A stretch of DNA of 64,000 nt. Source: Agarivorans sp. Alg241-V36 (GTDB taxonomy: Bacteria > Pseudomonadota > Gammaproteobacteria > Enterobacterales > Celerinatantimonadaceae). Shown piece by piece: positions 35,214-48,802 of the stretch (position 1 is the stretch's first letter; each line of letters starts with the position of its first letter). The notes under the pieces were generated by a model, which was given only the letters and a program-made list of their open reading frames with translations, searched no databases and was not told the origin of the DNA. Location: NCBI RefSeq assembly GCF_900537085.1, contig NZ_UNRE01000001.1, positions 315,163 through 379,162 on the forward strand. The letters are read 5' to 3'. Both the position numbers and the translations under genes were made by a program.

Positions 35214-36467
35214 TTAACTTAGCATTTCACAAGAGACCAAGATAACCCCGCCTGCAGATACGGTAAAGCGACGCTTATCTTCTGTTTCATCGTAGCCAAT
35301 CACGGTGCCATCGGGCACTACGCAATCTTCGGCAATAATTGCTTTACGGATCTTACAGTTTTTACCAATACTGCAACCATTAAGCGCTATTACTTGCTCA
35401 AGCTCGGTGTGCTCTTCTACGCGCACATCTAAAGACAACAATGAGCGATTCACTTTAGCTCCCGATACAATGGTACCTGCTGAAAGTAATGAGTCGGTAG
35501 CATAGCCTCTACGCTCGTCTTCATTAAAAACAAATTTAGCCCCAGGGCGCTGCTTTTGGTCGGTGATTATTGGCCAATCGCGGTCATATAAATCAAGTTC
35601 TGGATTGGGGTCAACTAGGTCCATATTGGCGGCAAAGTACTCGTCAATGTCACCCACATCGCGCCAGTAAGCGGTACGCCCTGGGTGGCCTTTATCGGCA
35701 AATACATAGCCATAAACCTTACGGTTTTTGAGCATGTTAGGAATAACGTTGTGGCCAAAGTCGTGGGAGTAACCCGGTTTTAATAAACCCTTACGCAGCT
35801 CGTCATCTAATACATCCATGTTGAAGATATATATGCCCATAGAGACTAGCGCTTTTTCAGGGTTGTTTGGGTCAGATTTTGGGTGGTCGGGTTTTTCTTC
35901 AAAATCTACGATTCGCCCTTCATCATCCAAACCCATTACGCCAAAAGAGGACGCTTGAGACAGCGGCTTACGAATACAGGCCACGGTAACGTCTGCATCG
36001 TTCTCTGCATGGAAGTTGATCATGCGAGAGTAGTCCATCTTGTAAATGTGGTCGCCACCTAGAATGAGTACGCGGTCATAATGTTCATGGTCGATGATGT
36101 CTAGATTTTGGTATACCGCATCGGCGGTGCCACGGTACCAGTTTTCACCGGTTCGCTGCTGGGCAGGAATAATTGAGACTCGCTCGTTTAAGGCAGGGTT
36201 AAGAATTTGCCAGCCTGACTGGAGGTGCATGATTAAGTCATGTGCCATGTACTGCGTGAGTACCCCAATATTACGCACCCCTGAATTGATACAGTTTGAT
36301 AGGGTGAAATCAATAATTCTATATTTGCCTCCAAAAGAAACAGCTGGCTTGGCAACCTTGTTGGTTAACTCTTTTAAACGAGTGCCTTTTCCTCCAGCAA
36401 GTACCAAAGCAACAGAACGTCTCACTAAGCGGTTACTGGAAGTGTGGGAATAGCGGTTTTCGGACAT
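35214..36467 (-). CDS. glgC: glucose-1-phosphate adenylyltransferase
   Basis: A 417-residue ADP-glucose pyrophosphorylase, the committed step of glycogen synthesis. The N-terminal nucleotidyltransferase signature ALVLAGGKGTRLKELT, the WYRGTADAVYQN and GGDHIYKMDY blocks and the C-terminal left-handed beta-helix (GCSIGKNCKIRKAIIAEDC) are all present. GAGGA precedes the ATG. It stands alone, with no glgA, glgB or glgP next to it. A perfect inverted repeat 61 bp upstream may control it. Confidence 0.95.
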   Translation of the reverse strand: MSENRYSHTSSNRLVRRSVALVLAGGKGTRLKELTNKVAKPAVSFGGKYRIIDFTLSNCINSGVRNIGVLTQYMAHDLIMHLQSGWQILNPALNERVSIIPAQQRTGENWYRGTADAVYQNLDIIDHEHYDRVLILGGDHIYKMDYSRMINFHAENDADVTVACIRKPLSQASSFGVMGLDDEGRIVDFEEKPDHPKSDPNNPEKALVSMGIYIFNMDVLDDELRKGLLKPGYSHDFGHNVIPNMLKNRKVYGYVFADKGHPGRTAYWRDVGDIDEYFAANMDLVDPNPELDLYDRDWPIITDQKQRPGAKFVFNEDERRGYATDSLLSAGTIVSGAKVNRSLLSLDVRVEEHTELEQVIALNGCSIGKNCKIRKAIIAEDCVVPDGTVIGYDETEDKRRFTVSAGGVILVSCEMLS

Positions 36468-36789
36468 ATCGAAAATTTCCTCGTGGGCGTAATAGAAATC
36501 CTATGATAGCGTTTTCATACTGAATGTAACTGTCATTTATGACAGTTTTAGCTTAAATTTTTTATTCGCTAAGCAAAAAAAAGATGATTTTTCTAAAAAG
36601 TGATCTCAAACAGCGAATAAACCTTAATTAGCTAGGTCTTGCTACTATTTTAAAGCTGCTTAATTAATGGGCTGTTAAATTTTTGTTATGGCTATAAAGA
36701 CCAATTTTTATTGTAAAGCTTGTAAAAAATGACGGCTCCAACTCATTTGTCATACAAAGCTGTTATTTTCACTGGTTTAGCCAGTTGAT
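36468..36789. other. intergenic region upstream of glgC
   Basis: A 322-bp AT-rich region. It contains a perfect 20-bp inverted repeat (36528-36547) and several poly-A/T runs. A small ACTGG-TTTAG-CCAGT hairpin near 36770 could end transcription of the solute-binding protein gene. No gene is evident. Confidence 0.55.
36528..36547. promoter_or_regulatory. perfect inverted repeat upstream of glgC
   Basis: Arms AACTGTCAT / ATGACAGTT separated by TT, 61 bp ahead of the glgC start codon, in the expected promoter position. It looks like a dimeric repressor or activator site; the regulator is unknown. Confidence 0.5.
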
Positions 36790-43689: not shown

Positions 43690-44357
43690 GGTTTATGTTG
43701 TTGTTTACGAATTTCCCGGTTTTGTAGCTTGCTAAGTGTGAAGCTGGGAAATCTTAAATCGAGCTCTATGGCTAGCACCCGCAATAGAAATGCTGCACCA
43801 CTGGATAACAATATATTGTAGACCTCGTTTATGCCAAAGTGGCCCAGCACTACGTAAGATAAACTCCCAACAAGACAGGCGGTTACGTAGATTTCGGGCT
43901 CAAAAATAACCAACTTAACTTGTAGCATTAAATCACGAATTGCCGAGCCTAAGGTTGAGCTAATTACCCCCATTAAAATCGCAATCAGCGGTGCAACCTC
44001 ATAGCTCAACGCTTTACTGGTGCCTAGTACTGCAAACAAAGCGATGCCTGCTGCATCCATCCACAATAAGATTCGGTCAATTTTGATCACCCAGTGGGCA
44101 AAGAAATAAGTCATCACCGAGGCGACAATACAAACACTGAGGTAGTTGGGATCGGCTATCCAGAAAATTTGATCGGTTCTTAGCAGTAAGTCGCGGATAG
44201 TTCCGCCACCTATGCCGGTGACAATACCAACAAATACAAAGGCTAAGATGTCTAACTCGCGCTTAGCTGCGGCCAGCGCACCTGTTAGCGCAAATACAAA
44301 TACTGCAATTAAGCCGATTTGGTAAAGAGTGGAGTGAAAGTTTAAATCAAGAGTCAT
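43686..44357 (-). CDS. TRIC cation channel / UPF0126 family membrane protein
   Basis: A 223-residue protein with about seven membrane segments. The duplicated signatures are GIVTGIGGGTIRDLLL in the first half and GVISSTLGSAIRDLML in the second, typical of UPF0126 (YicG), related to eukaryotic trimeric intracellular cation channels. It probably conducts K+ or acts in glycine-related transport; the role is not settled. It is monocistronic. Confidence 0.88.
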   Translation of the reverse strand: MTLDLNFHSTLYQIGLIAVFVFALTGALAAAKRELDILAFVFVGIVTGIGGGTIRDLLLRTDQIFWIADPNYLSVCIVASVMTYFFAHWVIKIDRILLWMDAAGIALFAVLGTSKALSYEVAPLIAILMGVISSTLGSAIRDLMLQVKLVIFEPEIYVTACLVGSLSYVVLGHFGINEVYNILLSSGAAFLLRVLAIELDLRFPSFTLSKLQNREIRKQQHKP

Positions 44358-44445
44358 GCTAGTTAGGGCTGGTGAAAGACAGCTAGATTATAGTGCAAAG
44401 CAGCGGTGATACTTTGATTTCTAACCTTTGAGGCGTTTATTACGC

Positions 44446-45150
44446 TTAGATTAAGCCCATTAATGCCGCTTTTACGGTGGCCGCGGTTTTATTGACTACA
44501 TCGAGCTTGCGCATGGCCTGGCTGATATGAAAATTCACCGTGCGTGCTGTGATATTAAGTATGGTAGCAATCTCTTCAGCTGTTTTCCCGTCTGCGGTCC
44601 ATTTCAGCATTTCTAGCTCGCGCACGCTAAGATCTGGCATCTCGAGTTTTTCTTCGGTAATGCGTGATGCAAGGCCGTGGTGAGTGACTTGAGTTAACCA
44701 CAGCAACTGATAACGGTAGCGCACTAACTCAGCTGGCGTCAGCATCTCTGAGGAGCGCGCTAAAGTTAACATGCCGACCGTGCCATTAGCTTGGCGAGAT
44801 GATTGCGCCCAGCCGTATTCAAGGCCAAATGCACGGGCATCCTCCATTAACTCTGGAGTTTGGGAGAACACTTGGTCACTCCACACAATAGGCAGTTGAG
44901 ACGTCATCCCATGATGGACGGTTGGGTCAACCTTTAAGTAGTTTTTCTCTTGGTAAGTATTCTGCCAAATAGTGGGATAGTTATTGAGCATCTCGGTGCG
45001 AGGAGCAGACAAGGGATATGGAACTCGCAAGCCATAAGCACAAAAGTCGAATCCTAAAGCGTTGGTGATTTTAGATAATTCTTGGAAAAAGGCCTCACTA
45101 GAGCCTTGAGTTTCCAACAAACAGAACTGTTCTTCTAACCAAGCTTCCAT
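44446..45150 (-). CDS. LuxR family AHL-responsive regulator
   Basis: A 234-residue SdiA/LasR-like regulator. The N-terminal autoinducer-binding domain has NYPTIWQNTYQEKNYLKVDP and LPIVWSD, with the conserved Trp, Tyr, Asp and Pro positions of the AHL pocket. The C-terminal LuxR helix-turn-helix (SVRELEMLKWTADGKTAEEI ... NFHI) is complete. The AHL synthase gene and an rsaM-like gene lie adjacent. An imperfect lux box lies in the 155-bp region shared with the divergent rsaM-like gene. Confidence 0.93.
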   Translation of the reverse strand: MEAWLEEQFCLLETQGSSEAFFQELSKITNALGFDFCAYGLRVPYPLSAPRTEMLNNYPTIWQNTYQEKNYLKVDPTVHHGMTSQLPIVWSDQVFSQTPELMEDARAFGLEYGWAQSSRQANGTVGMLTLARSSEMLTPAELVRYRYQLLWLTQVTHHGLASRITEEKLEMPDLSVRELEMLKWTADGKTAEEIATILNITARTVNFHISQAMRKLDVVNKTAATVKAALMGLI

Positions 45151-45224
45151 GAGGGCTTTATCTTCTCCTAGATATGCAATAACTGCGCATAATCATTTTT
45201 CTCGTAGAATTACCAGTATAACGC

Positions 45225-45244
45225 AACTGTTAATGTTGACAATT
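45225..45244. promoter_or_regulatory. imperfect lux box in the luxR/rsaM divergent region
   Basis: AACTGTTAATGTTGACAATT: CTG-N10-CAA, one base off CTG-N10-CAG, with 7 of 10 symmetric positions. The first nine bases match the luxI lux box. It is placed to affect either divergent gene. Confidence 0.5.
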
Positions 45245-45305
45245 GAAGCTTTGGCTTCAGAATGCTTTCATGAGGGAGAGTTCAAATAAATAAAAAAATA
45301 TAATT

Positions 45306-45752
45306 ATGAAAACACAGGCAAGTGTACAGAATATAATCGAATCAACTCGTTATCAGGTTGTCCCTAGTAACGATGGCTTGGTGAGATTATCCGTTGAGCA
45401 GCTTAATGTGCTCGCTTTTAGCCATATCATCTCTGGCTTAGACAATATTAGTGAAGAAGAATTTAATAGTGAGCAGGCAATTTTCAGTGGCTATACCGAA
45501 TGGCTGTTTGAAAATGTGTGCGCTATCACCCTAGGCTGGGACTGGCATTGGCAGTGGCGTAATGGCCGCATGCAATGCCAAGTTAAGGGCCTGCCACGCA
45601 GTAACATTCAGTTGCAAGAAGAGGGCTTTGATGTGAGCCCTCGTCGAAATGATGAACTGTTGTTAGAGGCCATCGAAGCAATGGCTTGGCAAGTAACAAC
45701 AGCGGAAGCGATAAAAAATCGCTACCGTGAATCGCCAATGGTTATGAGTTAA
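45306..45752 (+). CDS. rsaM: RsaM-like quorum-sensing modulator (DUF4902)
   Basis: A 148-residue soluble protein. The FSGYTEWLFE motif and the tryptophan-rich GWDWHWQW are the features of the RsaM/AbaM family, small repressors of AHL synthesis found between luxR and luxI in Burkholderia, Acinetobacter and some pseudomonads. The setting here is identical: divergent from luxR and convergent with luxI (4-base overlap of stop codons). A GAGGGAGAG lies about 26 bases before the ATG, farther than normal. How RsaM proteins act is not known. Confidence 0.78.
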   Translation: MKTQASVQNIIESTRYQVVPSNDGLVRLSVEQLNVLAFSHIISGLDNISEEEFNSEQAIFSGYTEWLFENVCAITLGWDWHWQWRNGRMQCQVKGLPRSNIQLQEEGFDVSPRRNDELLLEAIEAMAWQVTTAEAIKNRYRESPMVMS

Positions 45753-46300
45753 GAAATATCTATGTAGCAGGCGAATAGTGCGTAGCCGTTCACTATTTTT
45801 GGTGGACCGGCACGATGGTAACGAAAACCTGCATTGCGTAGCATTCGCTCAATACCTAGCGGTGAGACCGAAATTAAGCGTTTAGCTCCTTGTTTTTTTG
45901 CGCACTCAATAGAGGCGGTAAGCAAGGCTAAAGCTTCACTCGACATCAGTTGAGTTGGTGCTTGGTTGTGATTGTCAAAGTCTACCGCAGCGAAGCGTGA
46001 TAGCTCCCAAATGTCTTGTTGTTTGGGGCAGGGAAGACCATTTAGCAACTCTGGAAATACTTCTTCCAGTAGGTAAGGCTCGGTGGTGGGCAGTAAACGT
46101 GCACAACCGCTGATGTGGTCTTGGTCGTTTTTAGCGATAACATAAACGGTGTCGTCGCGATCAAATTGGTCTTGCTCTATGCCATCAGGGGTGTCGAGCT
46201 CCCAGCCAAGCATCTCTACAAACACTTGATGACGATAGTGATTTAGATGTTGAAAAGTAGTCGGTGAAAGCTGTTCTGCAACGCCATTAACAAAGTCCAT
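45749..46300 (-). CDS. luxI: acyl-homoserine-lactone synthase, LuxI family
   Basis: A LuxI-type synthase of 183 residues (start at the second methionine, GGGAG with 8-base spacing). Conserved positions are RHQVFVEMLGWEL, DQFDRDDTVYV, GCARLLPTT, EVFPEL and WELSRFAAVD, matching the catalytic Arg, Phe, Trp, Asp, Glu and Arg of the family. It makes an N-acyl-homoserine lactone from SAM and acyl-ACP. A CTG-N10-CAG lux box lies 58 bp upstream, so positive feedback by the adjacent LuxR is expected. The acyl chain cannot be predicted. Confidence 0.94.
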   Translation of the reverse strand: MDFVNGVAEQLSPTTFQHLNHYRHQVFVEMLGWELDTPDGIEQDQFDRDDTVYVIAKNDQDHISGCARLLPTTEPYLLEEVFPELLNGLPCPKQQDIWELSRFAAVDFDNHNQAPTQLMSSEALALLTASIECAKKQGAKRLISVSPLGIERMLRNAGFRYHRAGPPKIVNGYALFACYIDIS

Positions 46301-46357
46301 TAGCATCTCTCCCTTGGTGATGATGCTATGAGTACAATTCAGTGCGAACAGTTTTTA

Positions 46358-46377
46358 AACTGTTAAACCTAACAGCT
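46358..46377. promoter_or_regulatory. lux box of luxI
   Basis: AACTGTTAAACCTAACAGCT: CTG-N10-CAG with arms CTGTTA / TAACAG perfectly symmetric. It lies 58 bp upstream of the luxI start codon, the position for LuxR activation. A second dyad, AACAGTTT / AAACTGTT, partly overlaps it on the left (46347-46364). Confidence 0.8.
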
Positions 46378-46495
46378 AGCTATGACGGTGAAAATCAGCT
46401 ATGGCTTTGTTTTTGTTGGATTTATCAATTGAGCCTTAGTTTTAGCTCTTATATCGCTGCACAAAAAATAAACTTATTATATTTCAGCTAACTAG

Positions 46496-46954
46496 CTAAT
46501 ATTTGAGCAGTTTCTGATGGATCTTTGCGCGGCACTCTTCAATCATGCTATTTGGGAATTGCCGGTAGTCTGGGTAGGGGGTAAATAAAATATTCGGTGC
46601 TAAAAAATTCCATTTTTTTTGATTTGAGGCACTTTTTTCTTCTGGTGCTGTGTCAAATCGTTGCCAGTTAGCCTTTCCTGCCACTAAGTGTATTTTTGCT
46701 GATTTGACTAAATGCTGCTTAAAATTAATTTGCTGTTTAAGCAGTAAATCTTGATGTAAATAGCGTCGCCAATCCTCATCTGGTGCACAAAGCTTAGCGA
46801 ATATAGTTAACACCTTACGCCAGTTATTATTGTTGTTACCTAAAATAGCGTGGCTTAACTCAGCTCCCTTTAGGTCATGATGATTATTTGGTAGAGAGGG
46901 CGTCTGGGTATTGAGATAGAGCACTATTTGCGGTTGTTCGCTACCTAATTGCAC
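46496..46954 (-). CDS. DUF6942-like hypothetical protein
   Basis: A 152-residue soluble protein started at GTG, with AAGGACAG upstream. The NNNWRKVLTIFAKL segment and the KIHLVAGKANW segment resemble the DUF6942 family of Vibrionales and Alteromonadales, from memory. Function unknown. It is divergent from the acyltransferase gene; the Pho boxes lie in the shared 120-bp region and could serve it too. Confidence 0.6.
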   Translation of the reverse strand: MQLGSEQPQIVLYLNTQTPSLPNNHHDLKGAELSHAILGNNNNNWRKVLTIFAKLCAPDEDWRRYLHQDLLLKQQINFKQHLVKSAKIHLVAGKANWQRFDTAPEEKSASNQKKWNFLAPNILFTPYPDYRQFPNSMIEECRAKIHQKLLKY

Positions 46955-46994
46955 TTAACTGTCCTTGTTATTTGTCCACTTCAGGTGTGTGGGT

Positions 46995-47034
46995 GTGTCA
47001 TGCAACTGACACAAATTTGTTGCTTCTTTGTCAT
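46995..47034 (+). promoter_or_regulatory. tandem Pho boxes upstream of the OlsF-like gene
   Basis: Four 7-mers with 4-base spacers: GTGTCAT, CTGACAC, TTGTTGC, TTGTCAT. Three match CTGTCAY at 6 of 7 positions and the third is weak. The 11-bp period is the PhoB signature. The array ends 41 bp before the ATG. The first two 7-mers also form a GTGTCA/TGACAC dyad. Confidence 0.65.
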
Positions 47035-47074
47035 CTTCTGCTTCTAGCCTAACGGCGAATACAGGGAGAGAGCA

Positions 47075-48802
47075 ATGATTTCAGCACAGCAGGTACTTAA
47101 TCAACATTACCCCAGCCTAGCACAGCATCCGCGTCGTTATTCCTTCGCTAGTTGGTTTTTCTCTAAAGTGTTGTTTGAGGAAGAATTTCAAGCCTTTGGC
47201 GAAAAGCATCCTCACTTAAAAGGGGTGGCTTTTATCGACCAAGTATTCACCGAGCTTAATGTCAGTTATCGGGTCAGCCAGAATGAGCGAGAGCGCATTC
47301 CTAGTGAAGGCCGAGTGATTATTGTCGCCAACCATCCAATCGGGTCGATAGATGGTCTTGCTTTGTTGCACCTAGTTAGCCAGGTACGTAAAGACGTTAA
47401 AATTGTTGCTAATGAAATTCTCTCCGCAATTAAGCCTTTGGATGACTTGTTGCTGCCAGTAGATAACATGCATGGTAATAGTCAGCGTAAGCAGCTTAAT
47501 GCCATTAAAGCGCTGTTAGATGAAGAAGGGGCGGTGATTATTTTCCCAGCCGGTGAAGTCTCTCGTTTAAAAGGCATTAAGGTAAAAGATGGAAAGTGGA
47601 CCAAGGGCTTTGTAAGCATTGCTAAGAAAACCAATACTCCCTTGCTGCCCATTTGCGTAAAGGCTAAAAACAGTAAGCTGTTTTACTTTTGCTCTTTTGT
47701 CTATCGACCTTTATCTACTTTGCTATTGGTAAAAGAGCTATTTTTTCACCGTAACAAAGTGTTCTCGATGGTAGTGGGCGAGCAGATCCCGGTAAAGAGT
47801 TTTGGCTTAAGTGGCTTAGATCGCTCCACTCAAGCTCAGTTAATCAAGAAACACCTCTATCGTATTGGTAGTAACAAAAAGGGTTTGTTCCAAACAGAAG
47901 CTGCGATTGCTCATCCGGAGCAGCGTCTGGCCCTTAAAAAGGCAATTAAGCAGCTAGAGATAATAGGTGAGACGCCAGACGGGAAGCAGATTTGCATTTG
48001 TTATGGTAATTCTCAGCCTCTAGTTTTATCTGAACTTGGTCGCTTGCGAGAATTAGCCTTTCGCGCCGTAGGTGAAGGCACCGGTCGACGCACCGATACC
48101 GATAAGTACGATGCAAACTACATGCACCTTATATTGTGGGATGCAGAGCAACTTGAAATTGCTGGCGCTTACCGCTTTGCCGATACCAAACGCTTAATTA
48201 AAGACAAGGGGATTGGCGCTTTGTATAGCCAGTCACTGTTTGAATATGATGAGAAAAACTGTGATTTTTTGGCCTCGGGCATTGAGTTAGGACGCAGTTT
48301 TGTGCAGCCAAAATACTGGGGTAAGCGAAGCCTAGATTACTTATGGCTAGGAATAGGCGCATTTTTAGCGCGCAATCCTCATTATCGATACTTGTTTGGT
48401 CCGGTGAGCATTAGCGCCGCAATGCCAGAAGCTGGCAGAGATTTGTTGATACATTTTTATCAAACTTACTTTCCTTCTAACAAAAGCTATGCGCGTTCGC
48501 GTCAGCCATATCAGCTGGCTAAGCAAATCAAAAACAGTATTCATATGTCTTTCAGCGGTGATGACTATAAAGCTGACTTTGCCCAACTAAAGAGTGCATT
48601 GGCAGCAATGGGCACGGCGGTGCCTACGCTTTATAAGCAATACACCGAGCTATGTCACGCTGGTGGGGTTCAGTTTATTGATTTCAACGTAGATCCAGAA
48701 TTTAACCAGTGTATCGATGGCTTGGTATTAGTCGATTTACATCAGTTGAAAGAGAAGAAAAAAGCCCGTTACATAGACACCCATTTGCTTGATGAAAAGT
48801 AA
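47075..48802 (+). CDS. olsF: bifunctional acyltransferase, OlsF-like (ornithine lipid synthesis)
   Basis: A 575-residue fusion. The N-terminal half (about 40-270) is a PlsC-type O-acyltransferase with NHPIGSIDG and FPAGEVSRLKG. The C-terminal half (about 310-540) is an OlsB-like N-acyltransferase of the GNAT/hemolysin type (GRRTDTDKYDANY, EIAGAYRFAD, IELGRSFVQPKYWG). This is the domain pair of OlsF, which makes ornithine lipids in one protein. The tandem Pho boxes fit replacement of phospholipid by ornithine lipid during phosphate starvation. The first enzyme domain could also use glycine or another amino acid lipid. Confidence 0.85.
   Translation: MISAQQVLNQHYPSLAQHPRRYSFASWFFSKVLFEEEFQAFGEKHPHLKGVAFIDQVFTELNVSYRVSQNERERIPSEGRVIIVANHPIGSIDGLALLHLVSQVRKDVKIVANEILSAIKPLDDLLLPVDNMHGNSQRKQLNAIKALLDEEGAVIIFPAGEVSRLKGIKVKDGKWTKGFVSIAKKTNTPLLPICVKAKNSKLFYFCSFVYRPLSTLLLVKELFFHRNKVFSMVVGEQIPVKSFGLSGLDRSTQAQLIKKHLYRIGSNKKGLFQTEAAIAHPEQRLALKKAIKQLEIIGETPDGKQICICYGNSQPLVLSELGRLRELAFRAVGEGTGRRTDTDKYDANYMHLILWDAEQLEIAGAYRFADTKRLIKDKGIGALYSQSLFEYDEKNCDFLASGIELGRSFVQPKYWGKRSLDYLWLGIGAFLARNPHYRYLFGPVSISAAMPEAGRDLLIHFYQTYFPSNKSYARSRQPYQLAKQIKNSIHMSFSGDDYKADFAQLKSALAAMGTAVPTLYKQYTELCHAGGVQFIDFNVDPEFNQCIDGLVLVDLHQLKEKKKARYIDTHLLDEK

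Follow-up and report, generated by a model that had tools for sequence, protein, structure and literature searches.

A complete luxR-rsaM-luxI locus in Agarivorans: a second conserved lux-box-like element, common promoter spacing and a candidate small RNA under quorum control

Genes of the rsaM type strongly lower AHL in A. baumannii and P. fuscovaginae (PMC8088503; PMC10710839), and mutants in RsaM and AbaM are described as AHL overproducers (PMC10710839). In the case of AbaM, the gene is reported to be induced by quorum sensing and to be preceded by a lux box, and AHL is increased in the mutant (PMC8088503). The route by which these proteins act may differ between species, since BcRsaM is reported to bind neither dsDNA nor AHLs (PMC10710839) and TofM of Burkholderia glumae is described as having no effect on the transcription of tofI; TofM is also reported to bind the tofI mRNA, in which the RBS lies in a predicted hairpin (PMC10783058). 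As for gene order, Table 1 of a 2023 review (PMC10710839) places Agarivorans, Aliagarivorans and Hydrogenophaga in type 3a, in which rsaM lies in between, luxI and luxR are both on the opposite strand and rsaM is divergent from luxR, while Vibrio is given there as type 1.

Here we describe a locus found in a window of 64,000 nucleotides (the whole stretch of DNA that was analysed) from Agarivorans sp. Alg241-V36. It has the type 3a topology, and it agrees in genus, gene order and orientations with the Agarivorans and Aliagarivorans loci of the review (PMC10710839). We read it as a full AHL circuit braked by RsaM, laid out in a way that has been catalogued for the genus before. As regards what is likely to be new here, namely a second conserved box that makes rsaM a likely LuxR target, a promoter geometry shared by several boxes, and a candidate quorum-controlled small RNA, the type 3a entry gives the topology only and none of the three is mentioned for the genus in the parts of the review covered. 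Among the titles and abstract openings listed, in a search mainly of open-access literature, none pointed to a quorum-sensing-controlled small RNA in Agarivorans or to a study of AHLs in this genus; the "agarivorans" passages of PMC4359443 concern Pseudoalteromonas agarivorans, not the genus Agarivorans.

The comparison extends to other genera. As in the locus described here, the rsaM-family gene of the abaR-abaM-abaI locus of Acinetobacter baumannii is flanked by luxR and luxI homologues, and lux boxes precede both it and the luxI-type gene (PMC8088503), AbaM being 33.6% identical to the window RsaM over 74% of the query. In the tofR-tofM-tofI locus of B. glumae, too, the DUF4902 gene (27.8% identity over 86%) stands between the receptor and synthase genes, but its order is type 1, unlike the type 3a of the window, and it is for TofM that mRNA binding has been reported. 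Homology with BcRsaM (BCAM1869, structure 4o2h; E 6.5e-13) spans residues 20-137, with the Trp residues aligned, but that protein belongs to a Burkholderia context.

The positions given for luxR, a DUF4902/RsaM gene and luxI in a preliminary description of this DNA were correct, as judged from the reading-frame coordinates and from Pfam matches that exceed the respective cut-off for all three genes. The luxR gene (44446-45150, minus strand) encodes a receptor/activator of 234 aa with both the autoinducer-binding domain (PF03472, E 4.2e-38) and the GerE HTH (PF00196, E 6.1e-18). AHL-type LuxR proteins contact their ligand through a W/Y/D/P/W set of residues, and those of the window protein align with RhlR variants, which, along with QscR, are its closest solved structures. 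The rsaM-like gene (45306-45752, plus strand, 148 aa) adjoins both luxI and luxR and has a strand and a predicted promoter of its own; the profile search that the preliminary description had proposed for its product returned DUF4902 (PF16245) with E 2.8e-22 and 79.3 bits against a cut-off of 25, and its quartet of Trp 66, 78, 80 and 128 is aligned in 15/15 proteins compared. The third gene, luxI (45749-46306, minus strand), matches PF00765 (E 7.7e-27) and structure 3p2f (E 5.7e-45), and its alignments conserve R..F..W / D..D / R / E..R, the signature residues of LuxI AHL synthases. Its start is more likely the ATG at 46300 (183 aa) than that at 46306 (185 aa), because GGAG sits 8 nt before the former. 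The rsaM and luxI genes meet tail to tail, and the 4-base overlap of their stops that had been noted was borne out as a common TTAA at 45749-45752.

In the whole genome there is one DUF4902 gene, one AHL-type luxR (the sole PF03472 match) and one AHL synthase. The other, weak PF00765 match was rejected as a second synthase, as it is an exosortase-type acyltransferase (TIGR03694, E 9.7e-73). The rsaM leader (45272-45305) is A/T-rich and has no clear Shine-Dalgarno sequence at the ATG, the GA-rich AGGGAGAG lying too far upstream.

DUF4902 was present in 7/7 Agarivorans genomes, that of the window included, and in 9/394 genomes drawn from the order, corresponding to those seven and two of a sister genus within the family, which is probably Aliagarivorans. 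In the draws from the class and the phylum it was found in 2/369 and 6/398 genomes (5 of the latter over the family cut-off), the window's genome being counted in each. The RsaM of Agarivorans sp. Toyoura001 is 75% identical to the query. Since Agarivorans and Vibrio are already in the review (PMC10710839), the marine gammaproteobacterial occurrence, which the preliminary description had considered noteworthy, is not new. The order of a glycine-transporter-like gene, luxR, rsaM, luxI and an OlsF-like gene is kept in 9/9 loci of the two genera, and the 4-bp stop overlap in 7/7 Agarivorans loci, the two sister-genus loci having overlaps of 9 and 45 bp.

The lux box of luxI, CTGTTAGGTTTAACAG, lies at 46360-46375 on the minus strand and was identified by pattern match and by the alignment of relatives. 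A box ahead of luxI had been proposed previously from a CTG-N10-CAG motif at a distance of 58 bp. The box itself stands; counted from the called ATG (46306) the distance is 53 bp, and from the better-placed ATG (46300) it is 59 bp, so that the earlier figure comes near the second. The motif fares worse as evidence: CTG-N10-CAG occurs 10 times in the window, against 16.55 expected from shuffles, and being rarer than by chance it proves nothing alone. The longer form CTGTYANNNTTRACAR, written after the aligned relatives had been viewed and so not an independent guess, matches twice in the window against 0.02 expected (0/100 shuffles reach 2), and both matches are in this locus. The second of them is CTGTTAATGTTGACAA (45227-45242, plus strand), a lux-box-like element in the gap between the divergent luxR and rsaM that overlaps the -35-like hexamer of each; it ends in A and is therefore missed by CTG-N10-CAG, and it had been overlooked before. 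When the 15 window sites within 2 mismatches of the box were ranked regardless of place, these two alone had 0 mismatches. Exact pattern search found both boxes in each of the 7 Agarivorans genomes; of the sister-genus loci, 2/2 have the luxI box and 1/2 the gap box, locus L020 being without the latter. Across the whole 4.7-Mb genome of the window the exact pattern occurs at 3 places, 2 of them at this locus, while the reversed pattern, used as a control, occurs 0 times in that genome and 0 or 2 times in each of the other six Agarivorans genomes.

Further sites were also seen. A palindrome beside the luxI box, AACAGTTT/AAACTGTT (46347-46364), was dismissed because its outer arm varies among relatives. 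The perfect palindrome CTGTCATTTATGACAG (36530-36545), one mismatch from the box pattern, lies 62 bp upstream of glgC (35214-36467), but no convincing -10-like hexamer follows at the spacing of the lux promoters.

The spacing downstream of the boxes is also shared. The predicted luxI -10, TGTACT (46331-46336, minus strand), starts 23 nt after its box and is identical in 9/9 loci; the predicted rsaM -10, TTTCAT (45266-45271, plus strand), stands at the same 23 nt, and in 8/9 rsaM promoters the hexamer there is TTTCAT, TTTGAT or TTTATT (4/6). Both zero-mismatch boxes of the window have at 23 nt a -10-like hexamer scoring 4/6, and the small-RNA unit described below has TTTAAT (5/6) there in 5/5 promoters; as background, 4.5% of all window hexamers score at least 4/6 and 0.46% at least 5/6. 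From the start of the hexamer to the box centre the distance is 31.5 bp in the luxI, rsaM and small-RNA promoters, the transcription starts being predicted only. In class II lux-box promoters the box is centred near -42.5 and abuts the polymerase site, and the predicted geometry fits such a promoter. On the other side of the gap, the predicted luxR -10, TATACT (45215-45220, minus strand), is kept as AGTATA (plus strand) in 8/9 loci. The nine loci come from close relatives, and hence their agreement does not amount to nine independent events.

These data suggest the following circuit, a single and complete AHL quorum-sensing system with an RsaM-type brake, to which we assign a probability of roughly 0.8. 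LuxI would make the AHL, and LuxR-AHL would bind the two boxes of one sequence type at the locus. Binding at the luxI box would activate luxI, giving positive feedback, and binding in the gap would activate rsaM and probably also repress or tune luxR, whose -35 the box covers. RsaM would in turn lower the output of LuxI, so that the second conserved box, by making rsaM a likely LuxR target, would set up an incoherent feed-forward loop and keep signalling low. Elsewhere in the genome, a third box of the same type would drive a likely small RNA that carries part of the response. Against the circuit count the final A of the rsaM box, where a G would be expected, the absence of this box from the sister-genus locus L020, the close kinship of the nine loci, the possible difference between species in how RsaM proteins act, and the lack of a clear Shine-Dalgarno sequence before rsaM. 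With one synthase, one receptor, one RsaM and three exact box matches genome-wide, the locus offers a clean model.

Is the gap element a LuxR site at all? It could instead be no more than a -35 region common to two sigma-70 promoters that are both constitutive, rsaM then acting as a constant brake outside AHL control, a reading that we consider improbable. The right half of the rsaM box doubles as a sigma-70 -35 (TTGACA), and promoter constraint alone could thus preserve that half, to which the terminal A can be added; the CTGTY left half, however, is unneeded for the rsaM -35 and is nevertheless kept in 8/9 loci, and a full match to the rare 16-bp pattern is expected just 0.02 times in a window. 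A promoter scan does return TTGACA, a 16-nt spacer and CAGAAT for rsaM, as well as TTGTCA-16-TATACT for luxR, but the scan gave 2 sites in this region, fewer than in shuffles (mean 5.5), and the -10-like hexamer at the offset seen in the luxI and small-RNA promoters also speaks against this reading.

The only further exact box in the window's genome (G000:C8:169598-169613) reads on both strands and opens a candidate small-RNA unit, L072 1501-1686 (G000:C8, about 169598-169783), recognised from its box, -10, folding and intrinsic terminator. After the box and the -10, about 135 nt extend from the predicted start to the end of the terminator, GCCACTT-loop-AAGTGGC-T8. Orthologues occur in G001, G002, G004 and G005, that is, in 5/7 Agarivorans genomes in total; by eye, no reading frame outlasts the indels of 1, 7 and 12 nt, and in the three of five copies that were folded the folding beats shuffles (z -4.10, -4.03 and -2.82). 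In the G005 copy the flanking genes differ on both sides of the unit. We therefore propose this conserved, terminator-ended non-coding stretch as a candidate AHL-controlled small RNA.

Rfam gave 0 matches up to E 1 for copies L072, L057 and L070, and an RF03164 match in the lux locus was dismissed (20.2 bits against a threshold of 64.5, E 0.66). Against the small-RNA reading, covariation was not demonstrated in an alignment in which L070, the most divergent copy, fits badly in its central part (RNAalifold term +3.14; 2/39 pairs changed on both sides). Pairing with the start regions of luxI, rsaM and luxR was matched by 98, 57 and 85, respectively, of 200 shuffled small RNAs. In G006 the unit is absent upstream of the SEC-C gene and found no match in the stretches examined, in G003 the third box (L058) is followed by sequence that does not match L072, and the other pattern matches L071 (G006), L077 (G005) and L078 (G001) do not match the unit. 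We consider it an even chance that Agarivorans employs a single lux-box promoter design on three occasions, ahead of the synthase gene, the brake gene and an sRNA (about 135 nt) not described before. The sRNA would relay part of the quorum output through base pairing, and its unit could keep box, promoter and terminator amid different flanking genes; these three targets may then form the core of a small regulon directly under LuxR.

As for how RsaM would lower LuxI output in the proposed circuit, binding to the luxI mRNA, as for B. glumae TofM, is the best outside lead by analogy, with no clear support in this sequence. That this takes the specific form put forward for TofM and tofI, with RsaM targeting an RNA hairpin that covers the ribosome site of luxI, we consider improbable. 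The window does hold an inverted repeat, TAGCATC/GATGCTA (46301-46328, minus strand), which flanks that site with the SD in the loop and is itself of doubtful role; in L021 three of the six inner pairs are changed on both sides (alignment, by eye), and a predicted hairpin over the RBS is also described for tofI (PMC10783058). The folding, however, is no better than that of shuffles in the window (z -0.68; -0.44) or in L021 (z 0.21; -0.29), whereas L020 has a different hairpin over the SD (z -2.82 and -2.17 in two runs); the first value of each pair comes from a test of four stretches, of which L014 (z 1.76) was left out as too short for the 5' arm. Moreover, transcription is predicted to start some 6-7 nt downstream of the -10 and hence within the 5' arm, so that the main transcript may lack the hairpin.

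Accessibility tells both ways. The window luxI start codon is predicted to be closed, the least accessible of 55 window genes, and the start codon is unpaired with a value of 0.00-0.06 in 7/7 Agarivorans, in runs that used the start equivalent to 46306 except in L019. Leaders beside rsaM are not more closed in general, the median start-codon unpaired value being 0.70 (n=49) against 0.46 without rsaM (n=15), with start codons assigned automatically from SD matches, some of them perhaps incorrectly. An RBS hairpin was accordingly rejected as a feature typical of luxI genes linked to rsaM. The 49 luxI rows represent 47 distinct loci (L022/L038 are one, as are L111/L112), and 30 of the 49 rows (L023, L079-L107) are from one genus, g414, probably Burkholderia; in one search 45 places matched, of which 30 yielded loci, all of them used. 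The 15 control genes are in 14 loci and derive from the 15 of the 29 loci L027-L055 with stronger matches, among which L038 turned out to bear rsaM. One leader beside rsaM, that of L025 (G955:C10), has a very strong predicted hairpin over the SD and start codon (z -6.81) and is a better place than the window for testing RNA control of luxI.

The least probable alternative is that the convergent, stop-overlapping layout of rsaM and luxI is itself regulatory, read-through antisense RNA or transcription interference restraining luxI even without RsaM protein: the overlap found in all nine loci and the lack of a terminator-like site between the two genes (the only one in 44300-47100 is at 46994) would suit it, but compact tail-to-tail genes are common, the shared stop fixes the overlap through coding constraint, and in characterised RsaM systems AHL is restrained by an rsaM gene that lies on the luxI strand, which is also the arrangement in 38/38 other distinct loci. 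Among the loci with luxI and rsaM (n=49; 47 distinct), type 3a is found in the 9 of these two genera, rsaM and luxI being on the same strand in those other 38.

One further locus, L111/L112 (G1180:C311), has an rsaM gene on either side of its single luxI, all three on one strand, and a divergent luxR; it may represent type 5 of the review, with its two rsaM genes. Beyond luxI, the window carries on the minus strand a DUF6942 gene (46496-46954), which is present in the 7 Agarivorans loci, missing from both sister-genus loci and more weakly conserved than the genes around it, and then, on the plus strand, olsF (47075-48802), encoding the bifunctional ornithine lipid synthase OlsF (NF052615, 844.9 bits against 620). 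An OlsF homologue adjoins the lux locus in 9/9 loci, and the window OlsF matches Acetyltransf_5, as LuxI does.
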